Virus record (IMG/VR): IMGVR_UViG_3300010399_000354 | Location: 1 to 24,963 of that record | Reading direction: 5' to 3' (one strand) | DNA from: a virus | DNA length: 24,963 nucleotides | In this document: positions 1,559 through 24,636 of the stretch, piece by piece | Position numbering within the stretch: position 1 is the first letter of the stretch | Layout: each line of letters starts with the position of its first letter | Translations under genes and position numbers: made by a program | Notes under the pieces: generated by a model | The model's input: the letters and a program-made list of their open reading frames with translations, nothing else | What the model was told of the DNA's origin: nothing | Database searches by the model: none

Positions 1559-1559
1559 G

Positions 1560-2147
1560 ATGATGAACACGTTTATTTACGCTTTGTGTGAACCGGGAAC
1601 TCGGACGATTCGATATATTGGAAAATCTGGAAACCCGAGGAAACGTTTTTTTGAACATTTAGACAAATCGTTTCGTAATAGAAAACCCACTCATCGATCA
1701 AACTGGATTGATAAATTGAAAATACAGGGGCAATCCCCTGAACTTTTGATTTTAAAAGAGGTTCCCTTGAGTGAGTGGGAGTGGTGGGAACAATGCTACA
1801 TACGAAATGCTCGAATGTTAGGTTTTGATTTAGTAAATGCTACCGACGGCGGAGAGGGCATGAAAAACCCATCCTTCGAAACTCGTAAAAAAATATCAGA
1901 CGCGGTATCCGGAGATAAGCACCCCCTGTTTGGAATAGAAAAAGAGAAACATCCGTTTTTTGGAAAACAGCATTCCGAAGAATCTAAGAAAAAAATGTCC
2001 GAGGCAAAGCGTGGGGACAGGCACTTTAATTTTGGAAAACGCGGTAATCAAAGTTTTATGTTTGGAAGAAAACTTTCTGAAGATACAAAAGGGAAAATGA
2101 GGAACTCTCAGAGAATCCGACGCCTCCGAGAGAGGGGGGAGGTTTAA
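1560..2147 (+). CDS. GIY-YIG homing endonuclease with NUMOD3 repeats
   Basis: This 195-residue protein is a free-standing homing endonuclease. The N-terminal GIY-YIG nuclease shows FIYAL (5-9), RYIGKS (18-23), the Arg-rich stretch NPRKRF (25-30), the catalytic-type Glu in WWEQCY (Glu77) and an Asn/Gly-rich end NATDGGEG (93-100). From residue 108 about four NUMOD3 DNA-binding units follow, each with a G-D/N-x-H/S-x-x-FG core and a helix such as SEESKKKMSEA. The frame is open further upstream, but 1560 (or ATG 1563) is chosen because it follows the preceding stop and places IY near the N-terminus. Line 1621..1680 is about 33% GC, against about 63% in 4741..4800, so the gene is compositionally foreign. 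Such enzymes cut unoccupied alleles and spread by gene conversion. Confidence 0.92.
   Translation: MMNTFIYALCEPGTRTIRYIGKSGNPRKRFFEHLDKSFRNRKPTHRSNWIDKLKIQGQSPELLILKEVPLSEWEWWEQCYIRNARMLGFDLVNATDGGEGMKNPSFETRKKISDAVSGDKHPLFGIEKEKHPFFGKQHSEESKKKMSEAKRGDRHFNFGKRGNQSFMFGRKLSEDTKGKMRNSQRIRRLRERGEV
2138..2142 (+). promoter_or_regulatory. Shine-Dalgarno for the 483-aa gene, inside the homing endonuclease 3' end
   Basis: GGAGG lies six bases before the ATG at 2149, within a purine run that encodes the last residues of the homing endonuclease. It is one of the best ribosome binding sites on the plus strand. It fixes the 2149 start, and it means the inserted endonuclease gene now carries the signal for its downstream neighbour. 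Confidence 0.7.
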
Positions 2148-11499: not shown

Positions 11500-12111
11500 A
11501 TGCCTGAACTAATCGATGAAACAGCGGTGATACCAAAACAGGGTGTTGAACCAGTAGCGGCCGAAGCTGAGGGCGCGGATCTCCCGGATGAAGTTATCCA
11601 GATCCCGGCAATTCAAGGACTCCTCGCGGGCGCTCCCGCAGCGGTGTCCGCGAAGATCAAAAACGCCGAGAAGTCGGCCGAGGGTAAAGCTATCGTGAAA
11701 AACCGGGATGCCTTGCAGGGCGCAGGAGTAGGTTTTTACCGGTCTCTGGCCGGTGACGACGTGGTTTTGTTTAACCAGTTGCACATCAGCGGGGAAGACA
11801 TCAAAGCCGCCGACAAAGCCGGGAAATTGCTGGAAATCGCCCCTCCATTCGATGTGGTCAACCGGGAAATTGCGAAAGCAGGCCCGGAATCTCATCCAAG
11901 TATCAATTTTAAGGGGGTGCCTTCGGGCGCTGCTGGCCCTCAGCCAGCTTTGCCGCCTCAGTCGGCCACAATGCCCATGACGGCCGCTCCGAACGCCGCT
12001 AAAGCGAGGATACAGGCTCAGATCAAGAATCTACAGCCGCAGGCCCCGACTTCGGGGTCAAAACCGGGGTCCGGGAATATATTACGGTCGATCCTTCGTC
12101 CCGTCTTGTAA
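11500..12111 (+). CDS. Unknown protein with Ala/Pro/Gln-rich tail, last plus-strand gene
   Basis: This is a 203-residue protein starting at MPELIDE. The frame is open from further upstream, but that part overlaps the 56-aa gene and reads as non-protein-like basic sequence, so 11500 is preferred. Residues 1-130 look like a folded helical domain (containing IQGLLAGAP, GVGFYRSLAGDD and HISGEDIKAADKAGKLLEI). Residues 140-195 are Pro/Ala/Gln/Ser-rich, and a basic hydrophobic end ILRSILRPVL follows. I do not recognise the family. Being last in the virion-side transcription unit, it may be a structural or assembly accessory. Its last 89 bases overlap the antisense 3' end of the minus-strand gene at 12023..12373. 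Confidence 0.7.
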   Translation: MPELIDETAVIPKQGVEPVAAEAEGADLPDEVIQIPAIQGLLAGAPAAVSAKIKNAEKSAEGKAIVKNRDALQGAGVGFYRSLAGDDVVLFNQLHISGEDIKAADKAGKLLEIAPPFDVVNREIAKAGPESHPSINFKGVPSGAAGPQPALPPQSATMPMTAAPNAAKARIQAQIKNLQPQAPTSGSKPGSGNILRSILRPVL

Positions 12112-12373
12112 AACTCGCGCCTTCCGGAAACTTACCTCCTTTGACGACATCCAGCCAAGGAGAGTGTTCCGAAAGGGCCTTCGCCATCGCTCCAACGAAT
12201 TGTTGGCTGTTCAGAATCAACACATACTCATAATCCGCGCAGGCGTATGCCGGATTCGGAACCCACAAATTTTCTGTCGGAACCCAAGTCCGCGCATACG
12301 TCATCGCGGCCGGGAGTATGGTGAATCCGGCAACCGCTTTCGCGAGCGTGCCGAAAAATCCTCTACGGTTCAT
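12023..12373 (-). CDS. Secreted protein with twin-arginine (Tat-like) signal peptide
   Basis: This 116-residue protein has an N-terminus with the twin-arginine layout. MNRRGFF gives RR at 3-4 followed by Gly-Phe-Phe, then an Ala/Gly/Val-rich hydrophobic core to about residue 22, then PAAMTYA as a possible signal peptidase site near residue 27. The mature part (LWVPNPAYACADYEYVLILNS and onward) is short, with an alpha/beta feel and no known motif. Tat substrates are exported folded across the host inner membrane, which is unusual for a phage product. It is the last gene of the minus-strand operon; its ATG overlaps the phosphoesterase TGA as ATGA. Its 3' end overlaps the convergent plus-strand gene by 89 bp. 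Tat use is predicted from pattern only; a lipoprotein is unlikely because no lipobox Cys is seen. Confidence 0.75.
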   Translation of the reverse strand: MNRRGFFGTLAKAVAGFTILPAAMTYARTWVPTENLWVPNPAYACADYEYVLILNSQQFVGAMAKALSEHSPWLDVVKGGKFPEGASFTRRDEGSTVIYSRTPVLTPKSGPAAVDS

Positions 12374-13401
12374 TTTTTGATGACGAGGTGTCCCTTGAGA
12401 AGTTTCGCGTCTGAGCGCAGGTAAGGCTTATAGTATCCCCGGTCGAAGAAGAGATTAAACTCGATTCGGCATCGCGTCACCGCTCCGTCGTCCGGGTTCA
12501 CTTTGAATTCGAGAATCGCCCCGCCGATCTCCATCCGCAGGCGTTTCTTCCGAGCGAAGATTGTCTGGTCCTGAAACCCGGGCAACCCTATGACGTGGAC
12601 GTTCCGGTCAACCATGTAGTTGCTGACGTGATAGTGTCCTTGAACCAGTATCGCCGGTTTCTCGCCACCTTGAAAACTCTCGACCTGTTTCTGTCCGGTG
12701 TAACTCCTCGCGTATGCGCTGCCGCCTCCGGGATGCTGCACTTTGATGATCGTGCTTTTCCGTGCTCCCTTCGTTTGGACTTCCACATCCGCCTCAATGT
12801 GTCCGATGTATCGCAAGTCCTGCCTCCCGCCCATCTCCGCGACGTGCTGGAGATACGCGCCGAAGTTGAATCCTTCTTTCTGCCACCAACCCTCGTGGTC
12901 GTCCCCGGTGATGAAATGCGTAGTGATACCTTTTCGATTCGGGTAGTTGTCCACCACGTATTGAGCCTGCCCATCGATGCTCGTTTCGATGACTGAGGCC
13001 CCGTTGATCCGAGGGACGTATCCGTCCACAATGTTTCCTCCGTGTAGAACCGTGTCGATTCCCTCCTGTTTAAACAGGTCGTATTGCGAGTGCAGAGAAT
13101 CGAGCCGAGATTCCTTGCACGCAAGGTGCGTGTCGGCGACGAGACCGAACCGAATCCAGTTCGATCCGTCAATCGATCTCAGCGGAATGTAACCGAAGTC
13201 CGGAGGATCGAGTTTGATGTCGTGTTTCAGCGGAATTTCCGGTTGAGGAATTCCAGCCTTCGGAACGGTATTGGCTCTCCACAGCCTACGCTCCACCGAC
13301 TTCAGGGTTCGGCCCAGTATGTCCCCGATCTGTCGGTAGGTCTTTCCTTTTTGGAATAACTCTGCCGCTCTTTTTGTCTCTTCTTCGGTCCACGGATTCA
13401 T
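12370..13401 (-). CDS. Myb/SANT-like HTH fused to a calcineurin-like metallophosphoesterase
   Basis: This is a 343-residue protein. Residues 1-45 form a Myb/SANT-like helix-turn-helix (NPWTEEETKRAAELF, then YRQIGDILGRTLKSVERRLW), a likely DNA-binding unit. From about residue 83 comes a metallophosphoesterase: DTH (90-92), GGNIVDG (121-127), GDDHE (166-170), QHPGGG (222-227) and GHYHV (255-259). The usual GD in motif 2 reads GN, and the usual GNH in motif 3 reads GDDH, an apparent exchange of Asp and Asn at metal ligands. A DNA-directed nuclease or phosphodiesterase is plausible, substrate unknown. ATG 13401 is chosen because it places the Myb domain at the N-terminus; a TTG at 13443 would add 14 low-complexity residues. 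It overlaps the upstream ORF by 116 bp. Confidence 0.88.
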   Translation of the reverse strand: MNPWTEEETKRAAELFQKGKTYRQIGDILGRTLKSVERRLWRANTVPKAGIPQPEIPLKHDIKLDPPDFGYIPLRSIDGSNWIRFGLVADTHLACKESRLDSLHSQYDLFKQEGIDTVLHGGNIVDGYVPRINGASVIETSIDGQAQYVVDNYPNRKGITTHFITGDDHEGWWQKEGFNFGAYLQHVAEMGGRQDLRYIGHIEADVEVQTKGARKSTIIKVQHPGGGSAYARSYTGQKQVESFQGGEKPAILVQGHYHVSNYMVDRNVHVIGLPGFQDQTIFARKKRLRMEIGGAILEFKVNPDDGAVTRCRIEFNLFFDRGYYKPYLRSDAKLLKGHLVIKK

Positions 13402-13972
13402 TTTTTTCTTTCTGTTGTTGTTCGACTGCGTCTCGTTCTGCAAGCCATGCTACCAGATTATCCGGCATCGAATCTCCGGTAAAAAAACTGTCGAATGCTT
13501 CGAGGGCATCCTTCGGTGTGAGCCCGATGCCGACAATGGAGTCCTCTACGTGTTCGAGATCCCCGATGAAGGCAACCCACTGACCATCGGGCAGGCGTTG
13601 CAGAAAAGGCTTGTAGCAAAAGTGCGGTGTGTTGACGTTTTTCGCGGCCTTCGTTTGTTCCGCGAGGAACAGCAAGTTCTGGTCATACATCTGTTCCAGT
13701 TTTCCTTCGAGGCTGTTTTGAATGTCGAAATTCCATCGGTCGGCGTCATCGAGGATGTCCTCCAGCTTCGAACACACCTTGATGAAAAGCGTCTCCGCGC
13801 TCGACTTGCAGCCGCCGTCCATTTCTTTTTTCTGTTGCGGCTCGACGCCCTGTTGATTGTGAACGAGAATCGAATTCATCGCGAAGGAACCGACCTGTAT
13901 CAAGTTCCCGATCTGATTCGCGGTTGCAATGTCGCGCTGTGGAAAAGGTATCTGCGGTTTTTGGTTGCTCAT
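13286..13972 (-). CDS. Unknown protein with HicB-like segment; C-terminus possibly extended by a homopolymer shift
   Basis: This is a 228-residue ORF; ATG 13972 overlaps the RuvC-like gene's TGA as ATGA, so the longer open frame is rejected. The middle is helical. Residues about 119-165 contain PFLQRLPDGQWVAFIGDLE and then GIGLTPKDALEAFDSFF, resembling the strand-strand-helix pattern of HicB-like proteins (GxTPxEAL). No toxin partner is seen. After about residue 190 the product becomes very basic and polar and is simply the shifted reading of the Myb-encoding DNA of the next gene. The change falls on a run of seven A (13401..13407). With eight A the protein would end at about 191 residues in a TGA overlapping the next ATG, exactly like its neighbours. 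The N-terminal part is confident; the last 37 residues are doubtful. Confidence 0.7.
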   Translation of the reverse strand: MSNQKPQIPFPQRDIATANQIGNLIQVGSFAMNSILVHNQQGVEPQQKKEMDGGCKSSAETLFIKVCSKLEDILDDADRWNFDIQNSLEGKLEQMYDQNLLFLAEQTKAAKNVNTPHFCYKPFLQRLPDGQWVAFIGDLEHVEDSIVGIGLTPKDALEAFDSFFTGDSMPDNLVAWLAERDAVEQQQKEKNESVDRRRDKKSGRVIPKRKDLPTDRGHTGPNPEVGGA

Positions 13973-14475
13973 ATTTTCATCCGTGCAAAAGTTTCTTTCG
14001 CCCAAGCCCAAGCCCAAGCTGAATCTATGGCGTTGTCATCGAGACTTTCAAAAGGTATCAAAGCCCGGTGAGTCGGAAAAAGAGGAGTTTTTTTAGCAAA
14101 CCTTTTCATGGCCTCTTTAGTGGCCGTCCCGCTTCCGGTGGCAAATTTCTTCAGGGTTCCGACTGGAACACAGTCGAAGTGAGCCCCGGCCGCGCAAATC
14201 CAAATGGCGGCACGAAGGCTAGACCACAGTTGAACCTGATACGTGCTGGAAGCGAATTCCACATCCTCGAAAACCACGATATCGAATCTGCCGAATCGAG
14301 TAACAGTCTCACACAGCCGCTCGATTCTCGGATCTCTCGTCCGTCGTTGTCTGTCTCTGCCCCAGTCTCGAATTTCTCTTGCTGAGGCAAGTTCGAGTGT
14401 GGCGCAATAAAAGTTCTCGCCCTTGTTGTAGGCGTATCCGGTCTTCGTGCCGAGATCTAGGGCGAGAATGTCCAT
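13969..14475 (-). CDS. RuvC-like Holliday junction resolvase
   Basis: This 168-residue RNase H-fold nuclease is of typical length for the family. The first strand carries ILALDLGTKTGYA (catalytic Asp7). FDIVVFEDVEF holds the second acidic residue (Glu70). The last motif, LDDNAIDSAWAWAWA, supplies Asp146/147 and Asp151. Between them lies the conserved-type segment VPVGTLKKFATGSGTATKEAM, in which Lys and Gly-Thr-Ala contact junction DNA in RuvC relatives. In phages such enzymes resolve branched recombination or replication intermediates before packaging. The start overlaps the preceding stop by one base (TGATG) and the stop overlaps the next ATG as ATGA. It lies downstream of polymerase and primase genes, consistent with a replication/recombination role. 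Confidence 0.9.
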   Translation of the reverse strand: MDILALDLGTKTGYAYNKGENFYCATLELASAREIRDWGRDRQRRTRDPRIERLCETVTRFGRFDIVVFEDVEFASSTYQVQLWSSLRAAIWICAAGAHFDCVPVGTLKKFATGSGTATKEAMKRFAKKTPLFPTHRALIPFESLDDNAIDSAWAWAWAKETFARMKI

Positions 14476-14747
14476 CAGGTGATTTTCTCCACGAATTCAA
14501 CCGTCTTTCCATGAACCCCGCAGAACCTCACCGCACTCTGTTTGTCGATATAGAAATCTCCCCCGAGACCGTCTCCGTAATCGTTTATGAAAACACTCCG
14601 GGGAACGGGTTTCACCCGGTATTCGAATTCTTGAAAGTTCCAACAAGGAGATACCTCGGTCCATTCTCCGCGACCTATTCTTTTTGTTTCGATTGTCTTC
14701 CCCTCTTTGTGGGCCTGAAGAACTTTTATCATTTCGTCGTTTGTCAT
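14475..14747 (-). CDS. Small conserved phage-type protein, paralogue of the 109-aa protein at 20144..20473
   Basis: This is a 90-residue protein. It opens with MIKVLQAHKEGKTIE, then a strand containing Trp (EWTEV), then WNFQEFEYRVKP, and closes with VEFVEKI. The pattern (helix, EGKTI, a variable strand with a central Trp, then Y-R-V/I-K-P) is widespread in phage early regions in my recollection, with no known function. A second protein in this same operon shares the layout and even the FVE ending. The start forms ATGA with the sigma factor stop, and its stop shares a base with the resolvase start. Possibly a small beta-barrel or host-takeover protein; nothing more can be claimed. Confidence 0.75.
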   Translation of the reverse strand: MTNDEMIKVLQAHKEGKTIETKRIGRGEWTEVSPCWNFQEFEYRVKPVPRSVFINDYGDGLGGDFYIDKQSAVRFCGVHGKTVEFVEKIT

Positions 14748-15343
14748 AATAACTGTGATCGACTCGACTCAAGTGCGCCCCTCAATTTGAGAAGCGATTC
14801 CTTGTGAAGAGTCTGGATGTGTTGACGACGATATCCGAGCCGTTCCCCGATCTCCCGGAAAGACAGATCGAATTCGTATCGTAGGCGTATGATTTCCCGT
14901 TCCATTTCATTCAACGTCCGAAGTATGGCAGGTTGCATCCCCCTCGACAACTCTTTTGCTTCGAGACCGCGAAAATCCGGGTCACATGATGTCGGAACGA
15001 GCGCGGGGATCTCCTCTTCCATTTCAACCAGCTCGCCTCCGCGCCTCACGACTTCTAGCCGCTTGAATTCCTTACAGATTTGTCCCCGAAGGTATTGCTT
15101 CGCGAACCCGAAAAACCCGATGCCATTCGATTTCCGCAGACGGTAGTTCTTCGCCGCTTGACGAAGGGCGATCCAGCACATAGAGACCAGTTCAGTCTCG
15201 GACAGTCCCCCACGGGAGCAATGGCGACAATAGATCACGGCCTCGGACATGAACGCGAGTGCCAGTTTGTCGAGCGCGTTTTTCGTTCCGCGCTTCAGCA
15301 ACTTTCGCTCTGCGGCTTTGTCTATAGTTTTGGAAAAATCCAT
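14744..15343 (-). CDS. Sigma-70-family RNA polymerase sigma factor (regions 2 and 4)
   Basis: This 199-residue protein has two recognisable parts. Residues about 33-97 resemble sigma region 2: helices with AVIYCRHC, the acidic SETELVSMCWIALRQAA, then GFFGFAKQYLRGQICKEFKR. Residues 140-188 are a good region 4: LRTLNEMEREIIRLRYEFDL, then the helix-turn-helix SFREIGERLGYRRQHIQTLHKESLLKLR. Regions 1 and 3 are absent, as in small alternative or ECF-like sigmas. It would bind host RNA polymerase core and direct it to phage promoters. Since no phage RNA polymerase is visible and virion genes lie on the other strand, late-gene activation is the natural guess. Its ATG lies 22 bp inside the 3' end of the primase-helicase gene. 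Confidence 0.88.
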   Translation of the reverse strand: MDFSKTIDKAAERKLLKRGTKNALDKLALAFMSEAVIYCRHCSRGGLSETELVSMCWIALRQAAKNYRLRKSNGIGFFGFAKQYLRGQICKEFKRLEVVRRGGELVEMEEEIPALVPTSCDPDFRGLEAKELSRGMQPAILRTLNEMEREIIRLRYEFDLSFREIGERLGYRRQHIQTLHKESLLKLRGALESSRSQLL

Positions 15344-17421
15344 ATCCGAATTTTGTTTTCACCGGTCTCGGTCCTGCATTTGATGATGCCTTCCCGCTCA
15401 ATCAATTCGAGGTATCGATTGAAGGTCTCCGGCTTGAAGCTTTTCATAAAATAGTCGTTCCATGCATTCGACTGAAGCAACCGCACGAGGGCAGTCAGAG
15501 ATCCGCGCCATTCAGTCGCCTCAGGGTTCGCGATGAAATACGCCCGCAGTTCCTCAATGAGAATTTCCTTGAGAGGTGCCGCCCGGCTCGTCTGGTGCGT
15601 TTGATCGAGCAGGAATTGGTTGTGATGCGGGGCGTATCCGAATCGTCCGTCCCTCGGGACGATGTCCGGGACTTCCCAATCAATGAGGTAGCGACAAAGA
15701 AGTGGCAGCTCGATAGTGAGGGTTCGCTGTAGTTCATATCGTTCCGGGAAGTGAATATCGGCATCGGTGCATTTGAAGACGCTCGTTTTGTCGGCCGAGG
15801 TGTTATCGAGAGACGACAAAATCCGGCTGCTGACGAAATCGATGTTTGCGGTGACGCTGATTCTGCCCGCCCACTCGACCGTCACGGGCACGCGGAATTT
15901 TTCGTTCACCTTGAATTCTTGGTTCGCGGCCGTTTTCTTCATCATGGCGCTGAACCGGTCATGTGCATTTGTGGAATTGCCCGGTGAACTGTCATCTATA
16001 CACCACAGAGGGACGTGATAGTTTTCCGATCCGAAGGCGTCACCGTCCACGATGTAGCGACTCGCATCCACAAACCCGCCTACCGTTTTTCCCACCAGTT
16101 GTCGGCAGAAAAATGTTTTGCCCTTGCCCGCTTTTCCGAGGAGGTAAATATTCTGGCCCGGCCTCGGTGTCAGTTCGAATCCGGAGAGATAATAATGCTT
16201 CCACCACGCGAGAACCCAAACAAGTTGCTCCGGTGGGTCGAACAGGTTGTTGAGGAAATACCAGACCCACGTTTTCTCAAGGCCCTCGGAACTTTCCGCA
16301 GGCTTCATCACGTTGTTCCGCCAAGTATTCAGGACTTTCCGACAGTTGTATTCAATCAGGCCGGGCTCTCGGAACACAAACGGGGCTGCGCCGACCACGC
16401 GGGAGTTTTCGTGCAGATGAAAAAGCGTGTCCTCGATTTTCTTCTCTGGTATCCCGCAGCCTTTCTTCAGGTAGATCTTCATCGCGCTCTCGGACACCGA
16501 CTGGTAAACGCCGTCGATCTTGCGCCAGTAAGATTGACCGTCATGGAATACATCAAGTGTCGCCCGGGTTATCGACTCCTCGTTTATCTCTTTGACGAAT
16601 TCTTTTCCGAGGATATCTGACCACGGGTAAAACGGCTTCGCCGCATGTGCGCTGAAGGTGAGCATCCCATCTTTTTTGACGATGGCAGAAAGAGGAGAAG
16701 TTGAATCGACAATCCAGAAACTCGGTCCTTGAGAGTTTTCCTCAAAAGCAGTGGGCCAGCTAAATCCCGGATACTTATCCCGTATTGTTTTCTCAACCAC
16801 TTCGAGAGGGATTTCGTTTCCCTCAGGTGCGCGGAACTTGAATTTTTTCGCGGTCTCAACGAAGAATGCTTGGAGTTTGTTTTCATTTATTGGTCCCGAA
16901 TTATCAACCTTGCGCCAAACGGCCCCGTTGCAAAAAAGTCGAGTCGGATTTTCCCACGCCGAGACATCGAGCCCGGGCAGTAGGTCAAGATGCAGCCATT
17001 TCTTTGCTGCCTGCAAAATCCAGATGGAGAAATCCATAGACTCCACTTGCAGCGGTCGGGGCAAAATCCAAATGAGTCGGCAATTTCCGCCAAGAGAACG
17101 CTCAACCCACACGGGGCGAATTTCCATTGATTGTATTGCTTCATCGATTCGCTCATCAGATATTTTTACGTCATAGTCGGCCGCGAGTGCGTGAATGAAC
17201 TTCGGCGGGTTTTCCTTCGAGCATCGCTGCACGTCGTTCGCGGGCTCGATGCCGGTGTAAAAATTCCATTCGGTATCTTTTCGGCGATACCAGATCTGTC
17301 GTTCCTCTTTGTCGAGACAGATTCTATCTCCCGGCCGACTCGCGGGCGTGAACGTCCACGGCTCGCAGGGCGACATCGGGATCGATTTGTCAACTAGGTG
17401 CCGGGTAGAGAAAAACTTCAT
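15322..17421 (-). CDS. Primase-helicase: AEP-like primase domain plus SF3/D5-type helicase
   Basis: This is a 699-residue protein. In the N-terminal half, HALAADYDVKI (77-87) supplies a DxD pair (Asp82, Asp84), followed by SLGGNCRLIWILP (109-121) and a strand with NPTRLF. This is the arrangement of archaeo-eukaryotic primases, although the usual Ser-x-His is not clear. The C-terminal half has Walker A GKAGKGKT (429-436), a Walker B-like LWCIDDSS (472-479) and a sensor-type Asn in ISVTANID (Asn527), typical of superfamily 3/D5-like phage helicases. The last 100 residues look like a winged-helix cap. It would prime and unwind DNA at the fork with the polymerase gene just upstream. The ATG overlaps the membrane protein's stop as ATGA. 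Helicase half: high confidence; primase half: moderate. Confidence 0.87.
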   Translation of the reverse strand: MKFFSTRHLVDKSIPMSPCEPWTFTPASRPGDRICLDKEERQIWYRRKDTEWNFYTGIEPANDVQRCSKENPPKFIHALAADYDVKISDERIDEAIQSMEIRPVWVERSLGGNCRLIWILPRPLQVESMDFSIWILQAAKKWLHLDLLPGLDVSAWENPTRLFCNGAVWRKVDNSGPINENKLQAFFVETAKKFKFRAPEGNEIPLEVVEKTIRDKYPGFSWPTAFEENSQGPSFWIVDSTSPLSAIVKKDGMLTFSAHAAKPFYPWSDILGKEFVKEINEESITRATLDVFHDGQSYWRKIDGVYQSVSESAMKIYLKKGCGIPEKKIEDTLFHLHENSRVVGAAPFVFREPGLIEYNCRKVLNTWRNNVMKPAESSEGLEKTWVWYFLNNLFDPPEQLVWVLAWWKHYYLSGFELTPRPGQNIYLLGKAGKGKTFFCRQLVGKTVGGFVDASRYIVDGDAFGSENYHVPLWCIDDSSPGNSTNAHDRFSAMMKKTAANQEFKVNEKFRVPVTVEWAGRISVTANIDFVSSRILSSLDNTSADKTSVFKCTDADIHFPERYELQRTLTIELPLLCRYLIDWEVPDIVPRDGRFGYAPHHNQFLLDQTHQTSRAAPLKEILIEELRAYFIANPEATEWRGSLTALVRLLQSNAWNDYFMKSFKPETFNRYLELIEREGIIKCRTETGENKIRIWIFPKL

Positions 17422-17621
17422 TCTTTATCCCACTTATCAAAATTCCTCACTCCGATTTCGAAAAAGGCCCATAAAGAAATTCCGATAACATACATCGGCC
17501 AAAAGTAATACCAGAATCCCCCTTTAGAAGTCTCTGGAAGATCATGCAGCATCAGCCACGTCACAAATAGGATAATTGGAATGCTTGGGAAATACGGAAT
17601 GAGGTTCCACAGTTTTTTCAT
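17418..17621 (-). CDS. Small membrane protein with two predicted transmembrane helices
   Basis: This is a 67-residue protein beginning MKKLWNLIPYF. The open frame extends upstream, but ATG 17621 forms ATGA with the polymerase stop and gives a sensible product. Two hydrophobic stretches are visible, PSIPIILFVTWLMLH (about 13-27) and YYFWPMYVIGISLWAFFEIG (about 38-57), separated by a short loop and followed by a charged tail ending DKWDKE. It is wedged between polymerase and primase-helicase genes with 4-base overlaps on both sides. Possible roles include membrane anchoring of replication, superinfection exclusion or a holin-like function. None can be chosen from sequence, and no lysin is adjacent. 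Confidence 0.75.
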   Translation of the reverse strand: MKKLWNLIPYFPSIPIILFVTWLMLHDLPETSKGGFWYYFWPMYVIGISLWAFFEIGVRNFDKWDKE

Positions 17622-19606
17622 TTGAGATAATGACTTACTTCCTTCGCTTCTGCGGCGACCGGCAATCCGGCGCACCATTCCGGACACACTGACATAATGT
17701 TTTCAACGTCATGCTTTGTAATGTGCTCGTCAACTTCAAGAATTGCCTCGTCGTGCGAGGTAAACAGGACCGAGATCCCCGGAGTATCGTTCAGAATCAA
17801 TATGTGATCGGCGAAAACGTCCCGCGCAAACGCCTGCACCAGATTTTCAGTCAGCTTGCCCCCGTAGCTCTCGAAACGTCTGCCGCCGATGTCGCAGGTG
17901 AATACCGCACTGAGCCTCGGCTTGCCGTCTTTATCCGGCTTCAGCTTGCGCTCGCATTTGACCTTCTCGTAACGTAACACCCGCCCACTGGGGAGCACAA
18001 CTTTTAAATCACTGCCGATACTACGTTTAAACGCCAGCTCAAGAGCCGCCCAAATGCCTTTTTCTTTATCGGCAATCAGCGGGTTTTGCTCCCGGTATGC
18101 CGCGACGATCTCCCTAGACCGTTTTCCGTATCCACTGACTTTCGACCCATCAGGAAGAAACTCAAACTCCGGATCTCCCTCGGTGATGTCCATGCCGGTG
18201 TATTGATGCGCCATTGTAATGAACTTCAGCCATCCAGCCCCGTAGCCGAGAGCAAGTCGTCGCGCTTTCGCCTCCGCATAGATCGTGGATTTCTTGTCGA
18301 GTTTGTCCTCTTTGAATCCCATGCTGAATCGGGCCTCCGCTTCATAGATCGATTTACCGGCCCGAACGAAATCGAGTGTCTGATGATCTCCCACAAGCCA
18401 TGCGAGAGATCTCGGCTCGATCTGCGCGAGATCGGAGACGATCATTTTCTTTCCCGGTCGAGGGATTACAAGTGCCCGGAAATCGAGCGCATACTTCACC
18501 CACTCCGGAAATTTTCCAGTCGATTCCTTGTGCCGCATGGCTTCCTCGATGTTTTTCTGATTAGACTCCATGAAGCCCCCGACAGTGCAGAGAACCGGTT
18601 CCTTCCGCATGTTCTGCATGTTGATTTTCGCGTCACCAGACCAGCGGCCGGTGTGTGCTCCAAAATATTTCAATCCAAAAGGCATCGTTCCGTCACTCCG
18701 CAGCCGAGCCTTGACCGTGAGAAAACTTTTGTAGAGTTTGTTCACGGAGCGCCAGCTTGAAAGCGACACAATCCACGGGTGATTCCGCCGATACTCGTTT
18801 TCCCACTCCTCATAAGCTTCCTCGCCTTCGTGCGCTTTCACTGGAGGGCACGGGATGCCGGAGCGCCGACACTGTTCCGCGATGCATTTTGTGCTTGTCG
18901 GTTTCGTCTTGAAGCCTTCCCAACCGATTTCCTCCTCGTCGTCGCCCTCGTCGTTCATCCAAGGCAATAGTTTCTCGGTAGCGAGTTTCATTTCGTGCGA
19001 CTGGCAAATGTATTCATCGAGCAGCCGGGTATCGATCTGCACTCCGCGCATTCCTTGGTCGATGGTCAGATTCGAGAGTCGCTTTTCCTTCTCAGGCCAT
19101 TTGTCGGAGTGGTCAACCCAAATCTTGCGACACCAGAACGGATCTAGCCGCGCATAATCCAGCATTTTCCGTTGCTCCTCGGCGGAAAAATCCGCAGGCC
19201 AACGCTTGTTGTCGGAGTTTTCTCTCGGATCTTTCGAAAGTTTGATTCCGTAAAGATACTCAATCGAGTGCGCGAGCGCACGCCGGTTGCATAGATATGC
19301 CGTGAGATTCGCGGAGCAATGCCAGCCTGCGATATTGATCCGAGGAGCCCAACCACGGACAACCATTTCGTTGTAAACCGAGTTGTCGAAATATCGATTG
19401 TGACTGATGAGGGTCTGACCTTCGAGGGCGTTCCAGTTGAAATCCCGCCTGTGGCCTGCCCAATTCGTCTCACCGTCGCTCACGGAAATGATATACGGAT
19501 CGAACAACTCGTGCTTGCAGTATTGCTCCGCAATCATCGTTTTGACCGAGTATTTCAGCTTGCGGCTGAAAAACGTTTCTGTGTCGAAGCCGATTATTTT
19601 ATGCAT
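17618..19606 (-). CDS. Family A DNA polymerase with 3'-5' exonuclease
   Basis: This is a 662-residue replicative polymerase. Exonuclease domain: FDTET (Asp8, Glu10), SHNRYFDN (Asn70, Asp74) and YARLD (Tyr151, Asp155) make a complete proofreading site. Polymerase domain: TGRWSG (319-324), motif A SDLAQIEPR (Asp392, Glu397), motif B with Lys447 and LALGYG (451-456), and motif C SHDEA with catalytic Asp619. All metal ligands are present, so both activities are expected. The residue aligned to E. coli Pol I Phe762 is Leu451, the Leu type that surveys of phage PolA associate with slower, often temperate, replication. The position equivalent to Arg754 appears to be Tyr. The start lies 11 bp after the upstream stop, without a strong ribosome site; the stop is coupled to a membrane protein. 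Confidence 0.95.
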   Translation of the reverse strand: MHKIIGFDTETFFSRKLKYSVKTMIAEQYCKHELFDPYIISVSDGETNWAGHRRDFNWNALEGQTLISHNRYFDNSVYNEMVVRGWAPRINIAGWHCSANLTAYLCNRRALAHSIEYLYGIKLSKDPRENSDNKRWPADFSAEEQRKMLDYARLDPFWCRKIWVDHSDKWPEKEKRLSNLTIDQGMRGVQIDTRLLDEYICQSHEMKLATEKLLPWMNDEGDDEEEIGWEGFKTKPTSTKCIAEQCRRSGIPCPPVKAHEGEEAYEEWENEYRRNHPWIVSLSSWRSVNKLYKSFLTVKARLRSDGTMPFGLKYFGAHTGRWSGDAKINMQNMRKEPVLCTVGGFMESNQKNIEEAMRHKESTGKFPEWVKYALDFRALVIPRPGKKMIVSDLAQIEPRSLAWLVGDHQTLDFVRAGKSIYEAEARFSMGFKEDKLDKKSTIYAEAKARRLALGYGAGWLKFITMAHQYTGMDITEGDPEFEFLPDGSKVSGYGKRSREIVAAYREQNPLIADKEKGIWAALELAFKRSIGSDLKVVLPSGRVLRYEKVKCERKLKPDKDGKPRLSAVFTCDIGGRRFESYGGKLTENLVQAFARDVFADHILILNDTPGISVLFTSHDEAILEVDEHITKHDVENIMSVCPEWCAGLPVAAEAKEVSHYLK

Positions 19607-19617
19607 CGGAGGCTCAT

Positions 19618-19812
19618 TCAGGATGCTCCCCCATTCCAGTTTTTGAAACTGCTAACGGCGGCATTCGTCAGCTTGACGATCTGAACCTTCAGGTCGTCGA
19701 TCTGAAGTTGTAGCTTGAGATTTTCCTTGTCGAGTAGGTCGATGTGTTCACACACCGGACATCGACTCACCGAAAACTCGACAGTGTTATGACCGGCACA
19801 GCATGTTTTCAT
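19618..19812 (-). CDS. Small Cys-rich/coiled-coil protein (64 aa)
   Basis: The N-terminal 25 residues hold CCAGH and CPVCEH, four Cys and two His that could bind one zinc. A leucine-rich helix follows, with DLLDKENLKLQLQIDDLK (25-42) and strong coiled-coil heptad character, then a short polar tail. The ATG overlaps the nucleotidyltransferase stop as ATGA and the polymerase gene begins 11 bp downstream. It may be a dimeric zinc-binding accessory or regulatory protein. No family is recognised. Confidence 0.7.
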   Translation of the reverse strand: MKTCCAGHNTVEFSVSRCPVCEHIDLLDKENLKLQLQIDDLKVQIVKLTNAAVSSFKNWNGGAS

Positions 19813-20144
19813 TTGACGAAGAAAAAATCAATCCGCGTTCCGTTGTAATCCCAACATTCGATTTCTTTTGTGTCGGCCGAGTTTTCCGAGAATCCCCACT
19901 TGAACACCGGCTTGAATCCTGCGGATTGAAGGGCCTTCCGAAGTTCCTCCGGCCGCAGACACCGGCCGCAGTGCGGGTAGATGAAAATATCCACGTCCTT
20001 TGCAGATACCCCGGCGTGCAGGACCGAGCCGCCGAGGGCGCAGTGATAACCAGCCGGGATAATCGCCTTCTCTACTGCGTTGGCAATGGTGATGCCGTGC
20101 GACAGGGAAACGAAAGATCCGATCTCGATTTCGGTGTTAATCAT
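19809..20144 (-). CDS. Minimal nucleotidyltransferase-fold protein
   Basis: This 111-residue protein carries the signature of the polymerase-beta-type nucleotidyltransferase fold: LGGS (37-40), then nine residues later the DxD pair KDVDIFIYP (Asp50, Asp52), and a third acidic residue in RIDFFFV (Asp106). The intervening EELRKALQSAGF helix and the Trp-Asp-Tyr strand complete the small fold. Such minimal enzymes transfer NMP groups to tRNA, proteins or small molecules, or act as MNT antitoxin-type AMP transferases; a phage use in tRNA or defence manipulation is conceivable but unproven. No HEPN partner lies next door. A strong GGAGGT six bases upstream and the TAATG overlap with the preceding gene fix the start. 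Confidence 0.8.
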   Translation of the reverse strand: MINTEIEIGSFVSLSHGITIANAVEKAIIPAGYHCALGGSVLHAGVSAKDVDIFIYPHCGRCLRPEELRKALQSAGFKPVFKWGFSENSADTKEIECWDYNGTRIDFFFVK

Positions 20145-20473
20145 TAGAACACCTCCACAAACTTGACCACTCGAACAAATCGATGCTGGTAAGCGTGTCG
20201 GCCGAATCGTTCAGCCTCGGCCGGATCTGAGCGACTTCCGATACTAAGACACATTTCTCCGTTGGATAGAATCCGCTCGACAAACCATCGTTCCCTCGGT
20301 GCCGGAGGTTCCGGCTTGATCCGATATGTTTTCGGATTGGCTTCGAAAGTCGGATTTTCAAGGTCAACCCACTCATTTTGAAAAACTGAGTAGGACTGAA
20401 TTGTTTTCCCCTCGGAATACGCTTGCATGATCGGGGCGAGTGCAGCAAGGTCTCTAGCTTCAGTTTTTGTCAT
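20144..20473 (-). CDS. Small conserved phage-type protein, paralogue of the 90-aa protein at 14475..14747
   Basis: This is a 109-residue protein. It has PIMQAYSEGKTIQSYSV (14-30), NEWVDLENP with a central Trp, and KTYRIKPEPP, then an insert of about 20 residues and the ending VVKFVEVF. The helix, EGKTI, Trp strand, Y-R-I-K-P order and the FVE ending match the smaller protein near the sigma factor, so the two look like paralogues or a repeated domain family. Function is unknown. The start lies 14 bp inside the preceding gene's end, and its stop shares a base with the nucleotidyltransferase ATG (TAATG). Confidence 0.72.
   Translation of the reverse strand: MTKTEARDLAALAPIMQAYSEGKTIQSYSVFQNEWVDLENPTFEANPKTYRIKPEPPAPRERWFVERILSNGEMCLSIGSRSDPAEAERFGRHAYQHRFVRVVKFVEVF
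20151..20156 (-). promoter_or_regulatory. Strong Shine-Dalgarno of the nucleotidyltransferase gene
   Basis: GGAGGT on the minus strand lies six bases before ATG 20144, inside the last codons of the preceding gene. It is one of the best ribosome sites in the minus operon and supports independent initiation on top of coupling. Confidence 0.7.
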
Positions 20474-20717
20474 ATCCGATGATCTCCAGTTCGCTGTTCG
20501 GCGAGATGTTCACACTCGCACCATACTTACTAAATGACGCCACCACAACTTCTTTTCCGTCGATGATTTGTTTCACTTCTGTTTTCCGTTTTTCAACCGG
20601 CGTAATCACCGCCCTGCAATCGTTCACCGAGGTAACTCGCCAGCGTTCCCCGGAGAATACAACGATGTGCCCGGGCTGCAATCGTGTGAGGCTTCCCTCA
20701 GATTTAATCAGTTTCAT
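20460..20717 (-). CDS. Unknown small beta-rich protein (85 aa)
   Basis: The product begins MKLIKSEGSL and contains LQPGHIVVFSGERWRVTSV and RAVITPVEK, with regularly spaced Val/Ile strands and Gly turns suggesting a small beta barrel (SH3- or KOW-like). The later part, TEVKQIIDGKEVVVASFSK, continues the strand pattern. No motif identifies a function. ATG 20717 shares a 4-base overlap with the following minus-strand ORF's neighbour arrangement (20714 stop of the upstream gene), and the end overlaps the next gene by 14 bp, so it is firmly embedded in the operon. A nucleic-acid-binding role is only a guess from the fold impression. Confidence 0.65.
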   Translation of the reverse strand: MKLIKSEGSLTRLQPGHIVVFSGERWRVTSVNDCRAVITPVEKRKTEVKQIIDGKEVVVASFSKYGASVNISPNSELEIIGYDKN

Positions 20718-21007
20718 TGTGGTAGGTTTTTGACTGTCTTCAGGGCCTCCTCACGGGTGACTTCTTGCATATTGTATTCCGAAGTCATTTCGTCAAGCTT
20801 CCAAAACCCGAGCGGGCCGATGTCTCCATCAGGCCAGAAGGTTTGACCCTTTTCTCTCCCTCTTTTGAAGACGATTATTCTGCGCGTGAGATCCGGATCG
20901 TCCATAAGGAAAAACCTTGTTCGCGTTTTTCGAGGTCGCGACTCTTTCAGTATCTCCTCGATGCCTCGGATGAGGTTCCGGATACGTTTGATTTGATCTT
21001 GTGTCAT
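20714..21007 (-). CDS. Unknown small charged protein (97 aa)
   Basis: It begins MTQDQIKRIRNLIRGIEEILKE, an amphipathic basic helix. RPRKTRTRFFLMDDPD follows, then a strand region (RRIIVFKRG), a Trp-containing loop with FWPDGDIGPLGFWKLDEM, and an acidic C-terminus ending VKNLPQ. I do not recognise it. AGGAG eight bases upstream (21016..21020, inside the SprT-like gene's last codons) supports ATG 21007. The stop is in ATGA overlap with the next gene. The pI-splitting pattern (basic N-terminus, acidic C-terminus) is the only remarkable trait. Confidence 0.65.
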   Translation of the reverse strand: MTQDQIKRIRNLIRGIEEILKESRPRKTRTRFFLMDDPDLTRRIIVFKRGREKGQTFWPDGDIGPLGFWKLDEMTSEYNMQEVTREEALKTVKNLPQ

Positions 21008-21009
21008 GG

Positions 21010-21660
21010 TTATTTCTCCTCGGGTTTAGTTGAATCTGCGGGTGTCAGTTCTCCGTGCATCGGACAAATCGGATTCCCGATATCCAGCCACTTTTGCGTG
21101 ACCCGCACAGTGTATCCGCACTCGGCGCACTCGCACTTGAGGAGCCGGGTTCCTTGTTTCTTGCCGGGTGCTTTCAAGCCGTCGAGCCGCGAATGCGGGT
21201 ATTGACCGAGAACCCTTTCGAGGCTTTTGAAAACCGATATGAGGCTTTCGCTGGCGTGCGTGCGGGTGAGCTTTCCCTCAAGGCCGATGAGACGAGCGCA
21301 CTTGCCGAAAACTTTGTTGTGTCCTTCCTTGTGGCCGACGACGGCATGAACAATTTCGTGCGCGAGTGTCGCGAGGACTCCCATGTCGGAAGACACTTCA
21401 TATAGGTTCAGAGAAATAAAGATCTGAGCGCACGCCTTGTCTGCGCTCGCATTTTTGCTCCAGCACTCTCCGAGCACCCGCTTCTTGTTCGCGAGACCGC
21501 CACGCACCGGCCAGCCGCACGCGACCCGCACCTTCGGCACTTTGTAGCCGTTATCTTTGAACAACAGACGGTCCAGATCGACTACCGCCGCTTCCAACCA
21601 TTCCTCTCGTGTTTTGTGTTTCATTTGATTATCATTATGTATTTGATTTTGTTCACGCAT
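21010..21660 (-). CDS. SprT-like zinc metalloprotease
   Basis: This 216-residue protein has the active site LAHEIVHAVVGH (99-110; Zn ligands His101, His105), Glu102 as general base and His114 after the characteristic Lys-Glu-Gly. That is the HExxH...H arrangement of SprT/Spartan-like proteases. A C-terminal zinc ribbon is suggested by CAEC (178-181) and CPMH (199-202). Spartan-type enzymes cleave proteins crosslinked to DNA; in phages of this type the target is unknown, but a role in clearing DNA-protein obstacles fits its place beside the helicase. ATG 21660 is used; ATG 21624 (MKHKTREEW) is a possible alternative, since residues 1-12 are polar and unlike a domain. The 5' end overlaps the upstream small gene by 8 bp. 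Confidence 0.87.
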   Translation of the reverse strand: MREQNQIHNDNQMKHKTREEWLEAAVVDLDRLLFKDNGYKVPKVRVACGWPVRGGLANKKRVLGECWSKNASADKACAQIFISLNLYEVSSDMGVLATLAHEIVHAVVGHKEGHNKVFGKCARLIGLEGKLTRTHASESLISVFKSLERVLGQYPHSRLDGLKAPGKKQGTRLLKCECAECGYTVRVTQKWLDIGNPICPMHGELTPADSTKPEEK

Positions 21661-21784
21661 TCCTTTCTTTTCGGAGCAACACCAGCTCCCGAGCCTTGAT
21701 GTGGTTTTTCAACCACACGATTTCTTTCCGCAGTTGCGGAATTGATTTTTCCGCCAGCTCCCGCATGAATTTTTTATTTTTCAT
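21653..21784 (-). CDS. Small basic helical protein (43 aa)
   Basis: It starts MKNKKFMRELAEKS. The frame is open up to 21919, but the longer part is a shadow of the helicase's C-terminal coding sequence. The product is one long amphipathic, Lys/Arg/Glu-rich helix (QLRKEIVWLKNHIKARE and onward) ending RKERNA. A GAGGT ribosome site and the 17-bp gap after the helicase stop support it. The 8-bp overlap with the SprT-like gene keeps it in the operon. It might be an accessory of helicase or protease; no family is recognised. Confidence 0.6.
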   Translation of the reverse strand: MKNKKFMRELAEKSIPQLRKEIVWLKNHIKARELVLLRKERNA

Positions 21785-21791
21785 GTCCGTA

Positions 21792-21801: not shown

Positions 21802-23514
21802 TCACCCGACGAATGTCAAATGCTTTTTTGCCCGGGTCACTGCGACGTAGTAAATATTTGCTTCCTCGATGCCCCGGTCTTTCTTGAAAGTCTGAGACAG
21901 AACAAAAACCCGGTTCCATTCGAGGCCCTTCGCCTTGTGGACGCTTGAGAGAACAACCGCAGGCTTCGAGTTGCTATCGCTATCCTGAAACAAGCTGTAG
22001 ATCTTCGCCTCAATCTCTGCAACGTTCCGAGCCCCTTCCGCGACCGCTTGCAGTGTCTCGACTTGGTCATTAATCAGGGCGACTTTCGCCTCGGCGTTTT
22101 TGCCGACACTCAACCGGGCGCGTTGTTTGTTGCCCCAGTTTTCCAGCTTCCTGAAAAAATCCGGAACGGACTTCGCACGGAGTTTCTGGACCATTCCGAC
22201 CAGTTGAGCCCCGATGTCGCGACCCTCGATCCGGGCAGGCGTTCCGTTCCTCAGCAGGTTCAAGCAGGTTGACATTAAAGGCGCGTTCAGACGGCTCAAA
22301 ATCGCATCGCCGATCTTCGCGTTTTCGAGAAGCAGGTTGCCTTCGATCTCGTCCACCGTGCCTTCGGGAGCGGTCGGCGCGGCGTGGTAATCCTCTACGA
22401 TTTCGCTCGCAATGGCCACTACAGCCTTCGGGCACCTGTAGGTGGTGGTCAGACCGAGAACCGACGCTCCGAGCCTGTCCTGCATCATCCTCATCCCATC
22501 CTCAGCCGCTCCTCGAAAGCCGTAGATTGCTTGCCGGTCGTCACCGACGATGCAAATTCTGCCGGTCTTCTCACAGGCGCGAATCGCCATTTCGAGCTGA
22601 GGGAGATTCATGTCCTGCGCCTCGTCTACCACTACCAAGTCGAACCGGGGGAAAACCCAGTTTTTGACGACTGGCAACCAGACCATGTCGTTGAAACTGA
22701 TTCGGCCGAGTTCATCGCGTTCCTTCGCCAGCTCAAGGGCCTGCATCGATATTTCAGCGAGCCGTGCAACGGTCCAGCCTTCCGATTCCATGCTGGAGAA
22801 AATCCCCTTCGCGTCCGCGAGATCGATGAGTTGCGCGACAGTCGGATTCAGAAGAGTATTTTTCGCGAAGCCTACGATTCGTTCCACCAGCCCGGCAACT
22901 TCCTCCGGGATGTTCGGGCAGACCGTGAGGATACGGTCAGCTTCAACCGAGTTGTCAGGTTTCACGCCAGCCCATACCGCGAGAATGTAAGAAAACCCGA
23001 GGGAGTGCAGCGTCTTAATTTCGACACTCGGGTCGGTGATCTTGCGTTCCGCTTCGATCTGGTTTTTCTTGTTGAACACCGCGTAAAGTTTGCGGGCCTC
23101 GGTTGCGCGTTTGAAAGCCTCCTCGATGGTGGTCGTTTTGCCAGTCCCGGCGCGGGCCTTGACAACCCGGTGTCCGGTGCCCGTCGCGAAGTAAGTGAAG
23201 ATCAATTCCTGTTCCTCGGACCAGACCCGCGACGACGTTTGGGGAAGGGTCGGTTTGTCTCCGCTAGCCTCCGGCTGGCCCATAGCTGCCGCTACAGTTG
23301 AAGGCGATACATCTACCGCACTCCACCAGCAAATCTCCCAAACGTCGTCACGGTTCTTTCCGCAGGACACGCCCTCACTTTTGAGTGTATCCTTCGCGCT
23401 TTTCCACGCGCCCCAAAAAGCCGGTGTCGGACTCGCCGTCCGCAGTGTCCGCGCTCCGACCCGGGTGTTTACTATTTTCGCCTCGCTCCAGTTCAGCTTA
23501 ATCGTTTCGATCAT
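21802..23514 (-). CDS. UvrD/Rep-like superfamily 1A helicase with an N-terminal extension
   Basis: This is a 570-residue protein with all SF1A motifs: Walker A ARAGTGKTT (120-128), Walker B VVVDEAQD (294-301), motif III GDDRQAIYGFRG (324-335), motif IV TTYRCP (357-362), motif V SSVHKAKGLEW (523-533) and motif VI YYVAVTRAKKHL (555-566). It is shorter than cellular UvrD, with reduced 1B/2B insertions, as in phage versions. Residues 1-95 precede the helicase core and are not a usual part of UvrD; they contain a Trp/Cys-rich patch (VWEICWW, 58-64). A 3'-5' translocase acting at forks or in recombination is likely. A sigma-70-type promoter ends five bases before the ATG, so the message is probably leaderless and this is the first gene of the long operon. 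Confidence 0.93.
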   Translation of the reverse strand: MIETIKLNWSEAKIVNTRVGARTLRTASPTPAFWGAWKSAKDTLKSEGVSCGKNRDDVWEICWWSAVDVSPSTVAAAMGQPEASGDKPTLPQTSSRVWSEEQELIFTYFATGTGHRVVKARAGTGKTTTIEEAFKRATEARKLYAVFNKKNQIEAERKITDPSVEIKTLHSLGFSYILAVWAGVKPDNSVEADRILTVCPNIPEEVAGLVERIVGFAKNTLLNPTVAQLIDLADAKGIFSSMESEGWTVARLAEISMQALELAKERDELGRISFNDMVWLPVVKNWVFPRFDLVVVDEAQDMNLPQLEMAIRACEKTGRICIVGDDRQAIYGFRGAAEDGMRMMQDRLGASVLGLTTTYRCPKAVVAIASEIVEDYHAAPTAPEGTVDEIEGNLLLENAKIGDAILSRLNAPLMSTCLNLLRNGTPARIEGRDIGAQLVGMVQKLRAKSVPDFFRKLENWGNKQRARLSVGKNAEAKVALINDQVETLQAVAEGARNVAEIEAKIYSLFQDSDSNSKPAVVLSSVHKAKGLEWNRVFVLSQTFKKDRGIEEANIYYVAVTRAKKHLTFVG

Positions 23515-23519
23515 GGCTG

Positions 23520-23548
23520 AATATAGTTCGGCCCTCGGCGATTGTCAA
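23520..23548 (-). promoter_or_regulatory. Sigma-70-type promoter of the replication operon (leaderless start predicted)
   Basis: On the minus strand TTGACA (23548..23543) and TATATT (23525..23520) are separated by exactly 17 bp: a perfect -35 and a -10 differing from TATAAT at one position. Only five bases (CAGCC) lie between the -10 element and the helicase ATG at 23514, so transcription should begin at or within a base or two of that ATG. No Shine-Dalgarno is present in the interval, which agrees with a leaderless message. Confidence 0.8.
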
Positions 23549-23591
23549 AAAATATTTTGGCCCCCCGGGAGAACCACCAACCCGGGGAGCC
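23547..23591 (-). terminator. Hairpin terminator in front of the helicase promoter
   Basis: An 11-bp GC-rich stem with one mismatch (23559..23569 pairing with 23581..23591, core CCCCGGG/CCCGGGG) encloses an 11-base loop. Read on the minus strand it is followed by AAAATATTTTTT, whose T run leads straight into TTGACA. It would end transcripts of the two genes to its right. The six-base gap before the T run makes it less than ideal, so leaky read-through into the operon is possible. Confidence 0.65.
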
Positions 23592-23600
23592 ATGAGGGAC

Positions 23601-23617: not shown

Positions 23618-23782
23618 TCAACGACTTAGGATCGATTGGTCCGTGAACTTGTCCACGATTTCACTGAAAACTTCCTTCAGTTTTTTGCTGTCGGACTTCG
23701 ATAACAGTTTTGCGTGTTTGACGTTCACGAGAGTATCGATTGAACCCCCGTCAGAGGTGAATGTTTCGATTGAGATCTTCAT
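23618..23782 (-). CDS. Small unknown protein (54 aa)
   Basis: It starts MKISIETFTSDGG and ends QSILSR. The open frame continues upstream to 24001, but that part is the antisense-frame shadow of the 283-aa gene; ATG 23782 lies two bases after that gene's TAA. The product has an N-terminal beta strand pair (KISIETF, DTLVNVKHA) and a C-terminal amphipathic helix (SDSKKLKEVFSEIVDKF). It is probably co-translated with the 283-aa protein and ends just before the hairpin terminator. Function unknown. Confidence 0.65.
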   Translation of the reverse strand: MKISIETFTSDGGSIDTLVNVKHAKLLSKSDSKKLKEVFSEIVDKFTDQSILSR

Positions 23783-23784
23783 GG

Positions 23785-24636
23785 TTATGCTTGGACGATG
23801 CTGCGGATGAATTCGAGCACTTCCGGACTCGTTTTCTCGAACGGCGTGCAGACCGGCACGGGTGCGCTGAAGTTTCCCTTCTTCGTTTTGAAAGGACTGA
23901 TCTTCGTGCTGACCTTGAACGAGTGCGTGTAGTAACCGCCGCGCAGAACACCCGTGACCCGGTGCAAGTTGAAAACGCCTTTCACTGCTTGAGTGAAACA
24001 CGAGCCCTTGCAGTCCCAGTAACCGACGGTCATTTTCCGGTTGCCGATGTCGAAACCGAAAACGGTTCCATCATCAGCGAGGTGTGCGGGCTTCTCGATG
24101 GCGACGAGCAACTGCCAAAGAGGTTCGAACCGGCGCATACCCTCATCGCGCTTCAGTTCCCACTCTTTGTAATTGATCGTTCCGCCTGCCGCCCGGACTT
24201 CCGCCTCGGTGTCCACGGTGTCACCGCCGATGCCGCCCTCGATCTTTTCAGAAAAACGCTTCGACACAACGCCGATGACGTAAAGCACGACCGGAGGCAA
24301 AGCCGCCTTGGTGATCGTGCCTGCGCCTGCGTCGATGACTGCCGGGCTGTAGAGAATCGTGTCCTTCTTGAACACAATCGAACCGACGGGAAAAGTCTTT
24401 CCCAGTTCGCCGACTGCGTAAACAAGGTTCATGCGCGGAAGCATCACGTCCTTGAATCCCGGGAGATCATCGCCGAGGATGAACCCGCCGCCTGAGGGCA
24501 CAACGGCCGGGACGGAAGAGGGAGCCGCTGTCGCTACCTTCATTCCTTCAACCGGAGTATCAACCACCTCTGTTTTCCTCTCGACCACTGGGGCCGGAGC
24601 CGATCCTGCATCATTGCCGAATTTAATTTCGCTCAT
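23785..24636 (-). CDS. Unknown early protein, possible ssDNA-binding or replication accessory (283 aa)
   Basis: Residues 1-50 are Ala/Pro/Val-rich and low complexity. The folded part begins at GFILGDDLPGFKDVMLPRMN, continues with beta-rich segments (VGSIVFKKDTILYSP, PPVVLYVIGVV) and a Gly/Asp loop (EGGIGGDTVDTEAEVRAAGG). It ends with an aromatic/basic region (GYYTHSFKVSTKISPFKTKKG). No catalytic motif is evident. Place at the head of the replication genes and the beta/aromatic/basic composition are compatible with single-stranded-DNA binding, which a phage with its own polymerase, primase and helicases would need. This is inference; the acidic C-terminal tail typical of SSBs is absent. The leader is A-rich (AACAAAAACAAAATG) with no Shine-Dalgarno. 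Confidence 0.75.
   Translation of the reverse strand: MSEIKFGNDAGSAPAPVVERKTEVVDTPVEGMKVATAAPSSVPAVVPSGGGFILGDDLPGFKDVMLPRMNLVYAVGELGKTFPVGSIVFKKDTILYSPAVIDAGAGTITKAALPPVVLYVIGVVSKRFSEKIEGGIGGDTVDTEAEVRAAGGTINYKEWELKRDEGMRRFEPLWQLLVAIEKPAHLADDGTVFGFDIGNRKMTVGYWDCKGSCFTQAVKGVFNLHRVTGVLRGGYYTHSFKVSTKISPFKTKKGNFSAPVPVCTPFEKTSPEVLEFIRSIVQA

Follow-up and report, generated by a model that had tools for sequence, protein, structure and literature searches.

In the window, the whole 24,963-nucleotide stretch of viral DNA analyzed here, the mRNA of the replication genes is very probably leaderless: the -10 box of a promoter abuts the coding sequence of a helicase, and RNA polymerase would start at the A of the helicase ATG, giving a message that is read without an SD sequence. 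A leaderless helicase mRNA had been predicted in an earlier note on this DNA, and the prediction is well supported by comparison with relatives, in which the promoter layout is kept and the homologous protein starts at the same place. The gene concerned (21802..23514, minus strand) encodes a UvrD-like superfamily 1 helicase of 570 amino acids (PF00580, E 6e-18; PF13361, E 4e-14) and opens a unit of co-directional genes.

The minus strand reads tggctccccgggttggtggttctcccggggggcca-aaatatttt-TTGACA-N17-TATATT-cagcc-ATG in this region. The -35 hexamer TTGACA (23543..23548) and the -10 hexamer TATATT (23520..23525) are separated by the 17-bp spacer atcgccgagggccgaac (23542-23526), and the five bases cagcc (23519-23515) lie between the -10 box and the ATG (23512..23514), whose A, the sixth base after the -10 box, is the predicted +1. 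The UP-like A/T block AAATATTTT (23549..23557) adjoins the -35 box upstream and overlaps the tail of the supposed terminator discussed below. The coordinates that the earlier note gave for the hexamers, the spacer, the five bases and the ATG hold on direct reading of the sequence. The two hexamers match the sigma-70 consensus at 11 of 12 positions, with a spacing inside the 16-18 bp of sigma-70-type promoters. This is the top promoter-like match of the scanned region, where all others reach 9/12, and in the whole window an 11/12 site is found only at the helicase start, both strands included. Dinucleotide shuffles gave a mean of 0.09 such sites anywhere in the window, and a site of this quality with an ATG 4-8 nt behind it appeared in none of 150 shuffles. 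With a scoring matrix trained on relatives, the window being left out, the helicase promoter scored 19.1 bits versus 14.0 bits for the next-best minus-strand site. The consensus match and these scores bear out the description of a strong sigma-70-type promoter, the best on the minus strand. The helicase start also has the features of leaderless TA-led genes, namely TAnnnT at 5 nt from the start (range ~5-8 nt), a start codon placed by homology, and the absence of an SD (no anti-SD match of at least 3 nt ahead of 23514). Within the window, the strict promoter-ATG layout was seen once.

Relatives were public virus contigs of environmental origin found by their helicase. Protein alignment and the limits of the reading frames fixed their start codons, before the upstream DNA was inspected. 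The motif search that had been proposed as a check on the layout gave a positive result: in 18-19 of the 21 near-clade helicase loci (window included), a TTGAC-like box, a 16-17 bp spacer and TAnnnT end 5-6 nt before the homologous ATG or GTG, a fraction that describes the clade in a biased sample, near and distant loci having been split by identity and presence of the layout. This split does not affect the shuffle tests and whole-contig counts in the same manner. In a free search, the promoter at the start was the best promoter-like site of the 110 bp upstream in 17/21 near-clade loci, and the shuffle p was 0.001-0.002 for most of them. Two near relatives (L006 and L012) and an SD-bearing sister branch are without the layout, and it was absent from all 22 more distant or side-branch helicase loci, most of which carry an SD instead. 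On the helicase tree, the layout label needs 5 changes, compared with 13.5 when labels are shuffled. Among the aligned relatives, A2 and T6 of the -10 hexamer are invariant (19/19), and the extended -10 element GTGn, absent in the window, is frequent. The aligned promoters have an A-rich block 5-10 bases ahead of the -35 box, with A-rich columns of up to 16/19, and AAATATTTT of the window aligns with AAAATAGTnn, which in the relatives stands equally far from -35. This A/T block is widespread in the clade and is a candidate UP element.

Judged by sequence pattern, the layout is a genome-wide grammar in the near clade, covering many genes beyond the helicase, since 16 related contigs scanned in full (about 1.17 Mb) contain 58 strict sites in which the -10 box is followed by an ATG after 5-7 nt, against 6 with an ATG at 12-14 nt, 8 at 25-27 nt (a number that includes promoters counted again through a later ATG) and 1 for the reversed pattern, in counts that require no annotated gene behind the ATG. 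The near clade has about 50 sites per Mb. In 13 bacterial genomes the density is about 3 per Mb, and the summed counts at 5-7 nt and at 25-27 nt differ little (162 vs 106). In 16 more distant or side-branch phage contigs, the corresponding numbers were 22 vs 10, and half of the 22 came from one contig of 182 kb (L108) with 11 strict promoter-ATG sites. L108 comes from a lineage farther off than the near clade, so leaderless use may also have emerged or been retained in that lineage. Clade contigs are mostly about 60-75 kb, with one of 138 kb. This 138-kb contig (L107) holds 18 strict promoter-ATG sites, many with the common GATATATTAA..ATG. L002 (at 46321) and L003 (at 57548) share a second leaderless-type promoter before ATGAACGAATTTTTCGA, the counterpart of which is not among the strict sites of the window. 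Layout matches at L007 6038, L009 5825 and L022 2530 were set aside as the "promoter" apparently lies inside conserved RuvC-like coding sequence. Counts of AAATAGTnnTTGAC...ATG over all viral contigs, taken for two spacings, are lower bounds in both cases and cannot be compared with each other.

The hairpin upstream of the promoter is a 12-bp stem-loop, TGGCTCCCCGGG ... CCCGGGGGGCCA (23558..23592, minus strand), and may act as a terminator or insulator behind the upstream genes. These form a unit of a 283-aa and a 54-aa gene (23618..24636, minus strand) that ends 103 bp before the helicase ATG; the 283-aa gene has its counterpart ahead of the helicase in L002 and L003. The stable G+C-rich stem, as in intrinsic terminators, folds with about -27.1 kcal/mol (z -3.4). 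The earlier note had a terminator fused to the promoter. The part of this claim that stands is the strong stem, with hairpins of different sequence at the corresponding place in the two nearest relatives, L002 and L003; the part that fares poorly is the T run, which does not directly follow the stem. AAATA separates the two, and the six Ts include two that are part of the -35 box. A rival reading is that the promoter is real and the hairpin is a chance or regulatory structure, with the T run serving as the UP-like block of the promoter. We rate this at slightly under an even chance. It is favored by the position of the T run, which begins five bases (the first three AAA) past the stem, and by a re-implemented terminator formula, which is below zero both for the window (-6.9, below the cut-off) and for L002 (-10.9). 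Furthermore, the T block aligns with the AAAATAGTnn ahead of -35 in relatives that are free of the hairpin, four other folded clade members having none at the helicase promoter. On the other side, strong hairpins are present in all three closest members, between -78 and -83, in spite of unrelated stem sequences (L002 at -83, z -5.6; L003 at -80, z -5.7), and the L003 hairpin is canonical as a terminator (formula +40.6). The T run of the window appears to be mainly part of the promoter, corresponding to the AAAATAGTnn block of the relatives, and termination by the window hairpin is possible but weakly supported.

A protein with sigma-70 region 4 is encoded inside the operon (14744-15343, minus strand; Pfam), and 15 of the 16 related contigs have matches to this region, so transcription in the clade may follow a programme of its own. 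Both observations favor reading of the promoter by this operon-encoded, sigma-70-like factor of the phage, not by the housekeeping sigma of the host. We consider this unlikely, however, since the hexamers are the plain housekeeping consensus and the L107 contig is without a sigma match yet has its 18 sites. Reading of the helicase promoter by the host sigma alone is not settled either, because most relatives carry a sigma-like gene. The broader proposal that this uncultivated phage clade runs key operons mainly from leaderless promoters, possibly under its own sigma, is made tentatively and is rather doubtful at present. No inference on the host was drawn from cultured phages, whose closest matches are too distant (38% identity for the helicase and about 25% for the polymerase). 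A helicase family search in genome contigs likewise named no host, because no long match among those listed exceeded about 34%.

The start point of RNA polymerase is often 7-8 nt past the -10 box. The 5-nt gap places the A of the helicase ATG, the sixth base, at the near edge of the usual range, and a start 1-2 nt farther on would cut the AUG. On this ground, transcription might begin a few bases to either side of the A. The mRNA would then have a 1-5 nt leader or an incomplete AUG, and translation would begin farther down, for example at Met78. Such an offset is improbable in the light of the relatives. Homologous helicases begin at the same codon as the window ATG in the N-terminal alignment, and many open with M-[I/S/N]-E-T, so that the start codon and first residues are conserved. 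Compared with L002, 26 of the 44 changes in codons 2-52 are at third positions, which argues that the N-terminus is translated. In addition, the A is the sixth to eighth base after the -10 box at many sites of the clade. From the homologous N-termini and the third-position changes, Met78 was ruled out as unlikely to be the true start. The remaining view, that the match arose by chance, that the helicase has no promoter of its own and that the operon is read from upstream, is highly improbable given the conservation in relatives, the shuffle results and the whole-contig counts. As a separate observation, two unrelated N-terminal domains, of the NWSEPK type and the VEISGNTYPVKEALK type, alternate on one helicase core among L002-L022; the promoter and the opening few codons remain similar across this swap between subgroups.

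In the leaderless reading that we prefer, RNA polymerase would start at the A of the helicase ATG from the sigma-70-type promoter, and the 5'-terminal AUG would be taken by ribosomes without an SD, in 70S-type translation. The hairpin would mark the end of the preceding transcription unit and would keep read-through RNA, which lacks a ribosome-binding site for the helicase, from mattering, tying helicase output to the promoter. Since read-through RNA has no SD before the helicase, helicase synthesis should depend on its own promoter. We infer the exact 5' end, the 70S-type translation, the use of the promoter in infection and the insulation by the hairpin.

Behind the helicase, co-directional genes extend over 12023..21785 on the minus strand, as delineated with the ORF list, Pfam, promoter scans and reading of the start regions. 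A small ORF starting near 21785 fills the 21802-21660 stretch, so there is no large gap after the helicase. The other products are a SprT-like protein, a PolA-type polymerase, a DUF5906 protein, the sigma-70 region 4 protein, a RuvC-like protein, a phosphoesterase and further small ORFs; the RuvC-like protein and the phosphoesterase were named by sequence appearance, without a Pfam match. Promoter scans found no second strong promoter within 12023..21785 on this strand, other sites being much weaker. SD-like sites lie ahead of downstream genes (AGGAG at 21007 and GGAGGTG at 20144), and at least some genes farther along the transcript would use their own SD. As for the claim that the promoter drives about 11.5 kb, the tight packing of co-directional genes speaks for it; co-transcription of this length from the helicase promoter is plausible, and we infer that the whole stretch is transcribed.

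Leaderless promoters of this form are already known in bacteria and in some phages, and the clade-wide use is what is added here. The lambda cI gene is a phage gene with a leaderless mRNA. In phage PY54, the cI and cro mRNAs begin with AUG as determined by RACE, and in the case of cro the start codon immediately follows a strong promoter flanked by a UP-like A/T sequence (PMC4488713), an arrangement like that of the helicase. Leaderless expression in PY54 and lambda concerns repressor genes of temperate phages, whereas here it would concern a replication operon and many further genes. Promoters with an adjacent -10 box have been described in Deinococcus-Thermus (PMC12340547); they share TAnnnT about 6-7 bp before the start, leaderless mRNA and the absence of an SD, while the present promoters have a full -35 box and an upstream A/T block and belong to an uncultivated phage clade known from sequence. 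In a survey of bacterial and archaeal genomes, TA-led leaderless genes were found in many bacteria, and a TA-like signal lying about 10 bp ahead of the start was likewise taken as a sign of leaderless genes (Zheng et al., 2011, PMC3160421); the genes considered here are those of phages. Phage-wide use of leaderless mRNA is also known from the Thermus phage phiYS40, in which changes of IF2/IF3 have been reported (reviewed in PMC3594737), but there it involves the middle and late classes in a thermophile, and here it is predicted. The window hairpin resembles intrinsic (Rho-independent) terminators in having a G+C-rich stem followed by a T-rich stretch, and differs from them in that the T run is displaced from the stem and is common to the next promoter.

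These results make a statistically strong case, from sequence only, for an uncultivated phage group with broad leaderless expression that includes replication genes and goes beyond a repressor. The rule TTGAC-16/18-TAnnnT-5/7-ATG can be used to correct start sites and to find promoters in such contigs. Broad leaderless use would imply that the hosts translate leaderless mRNA well. If it holds clade-wide, phage protein output would depend on promoter choice and on the leaderless-competent state of host ribosomes. The combined hairpin and promoter would illustrate a compact joining of two transcription units.

Elsewhere in the window, neither an RNA family (Rfam search) nor a tRNA was found. The last gene of the helicase unit (12023-12373, minus strand) begins with MNRRGFFGTLAKAVAGF, which is similar to a twin-arginine export signal and is unusual for a phage replication operon. 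On the plus strand, 3601-11328 is a single ORF of 2575 aa that matches DUF7178 and DUF3293 close to its C-terminus, and is probably a large virion-associated protein. An ORF resembling a GIY-YIG type nuclease (1443-2147, plus strand) lies amid putative virion genes.
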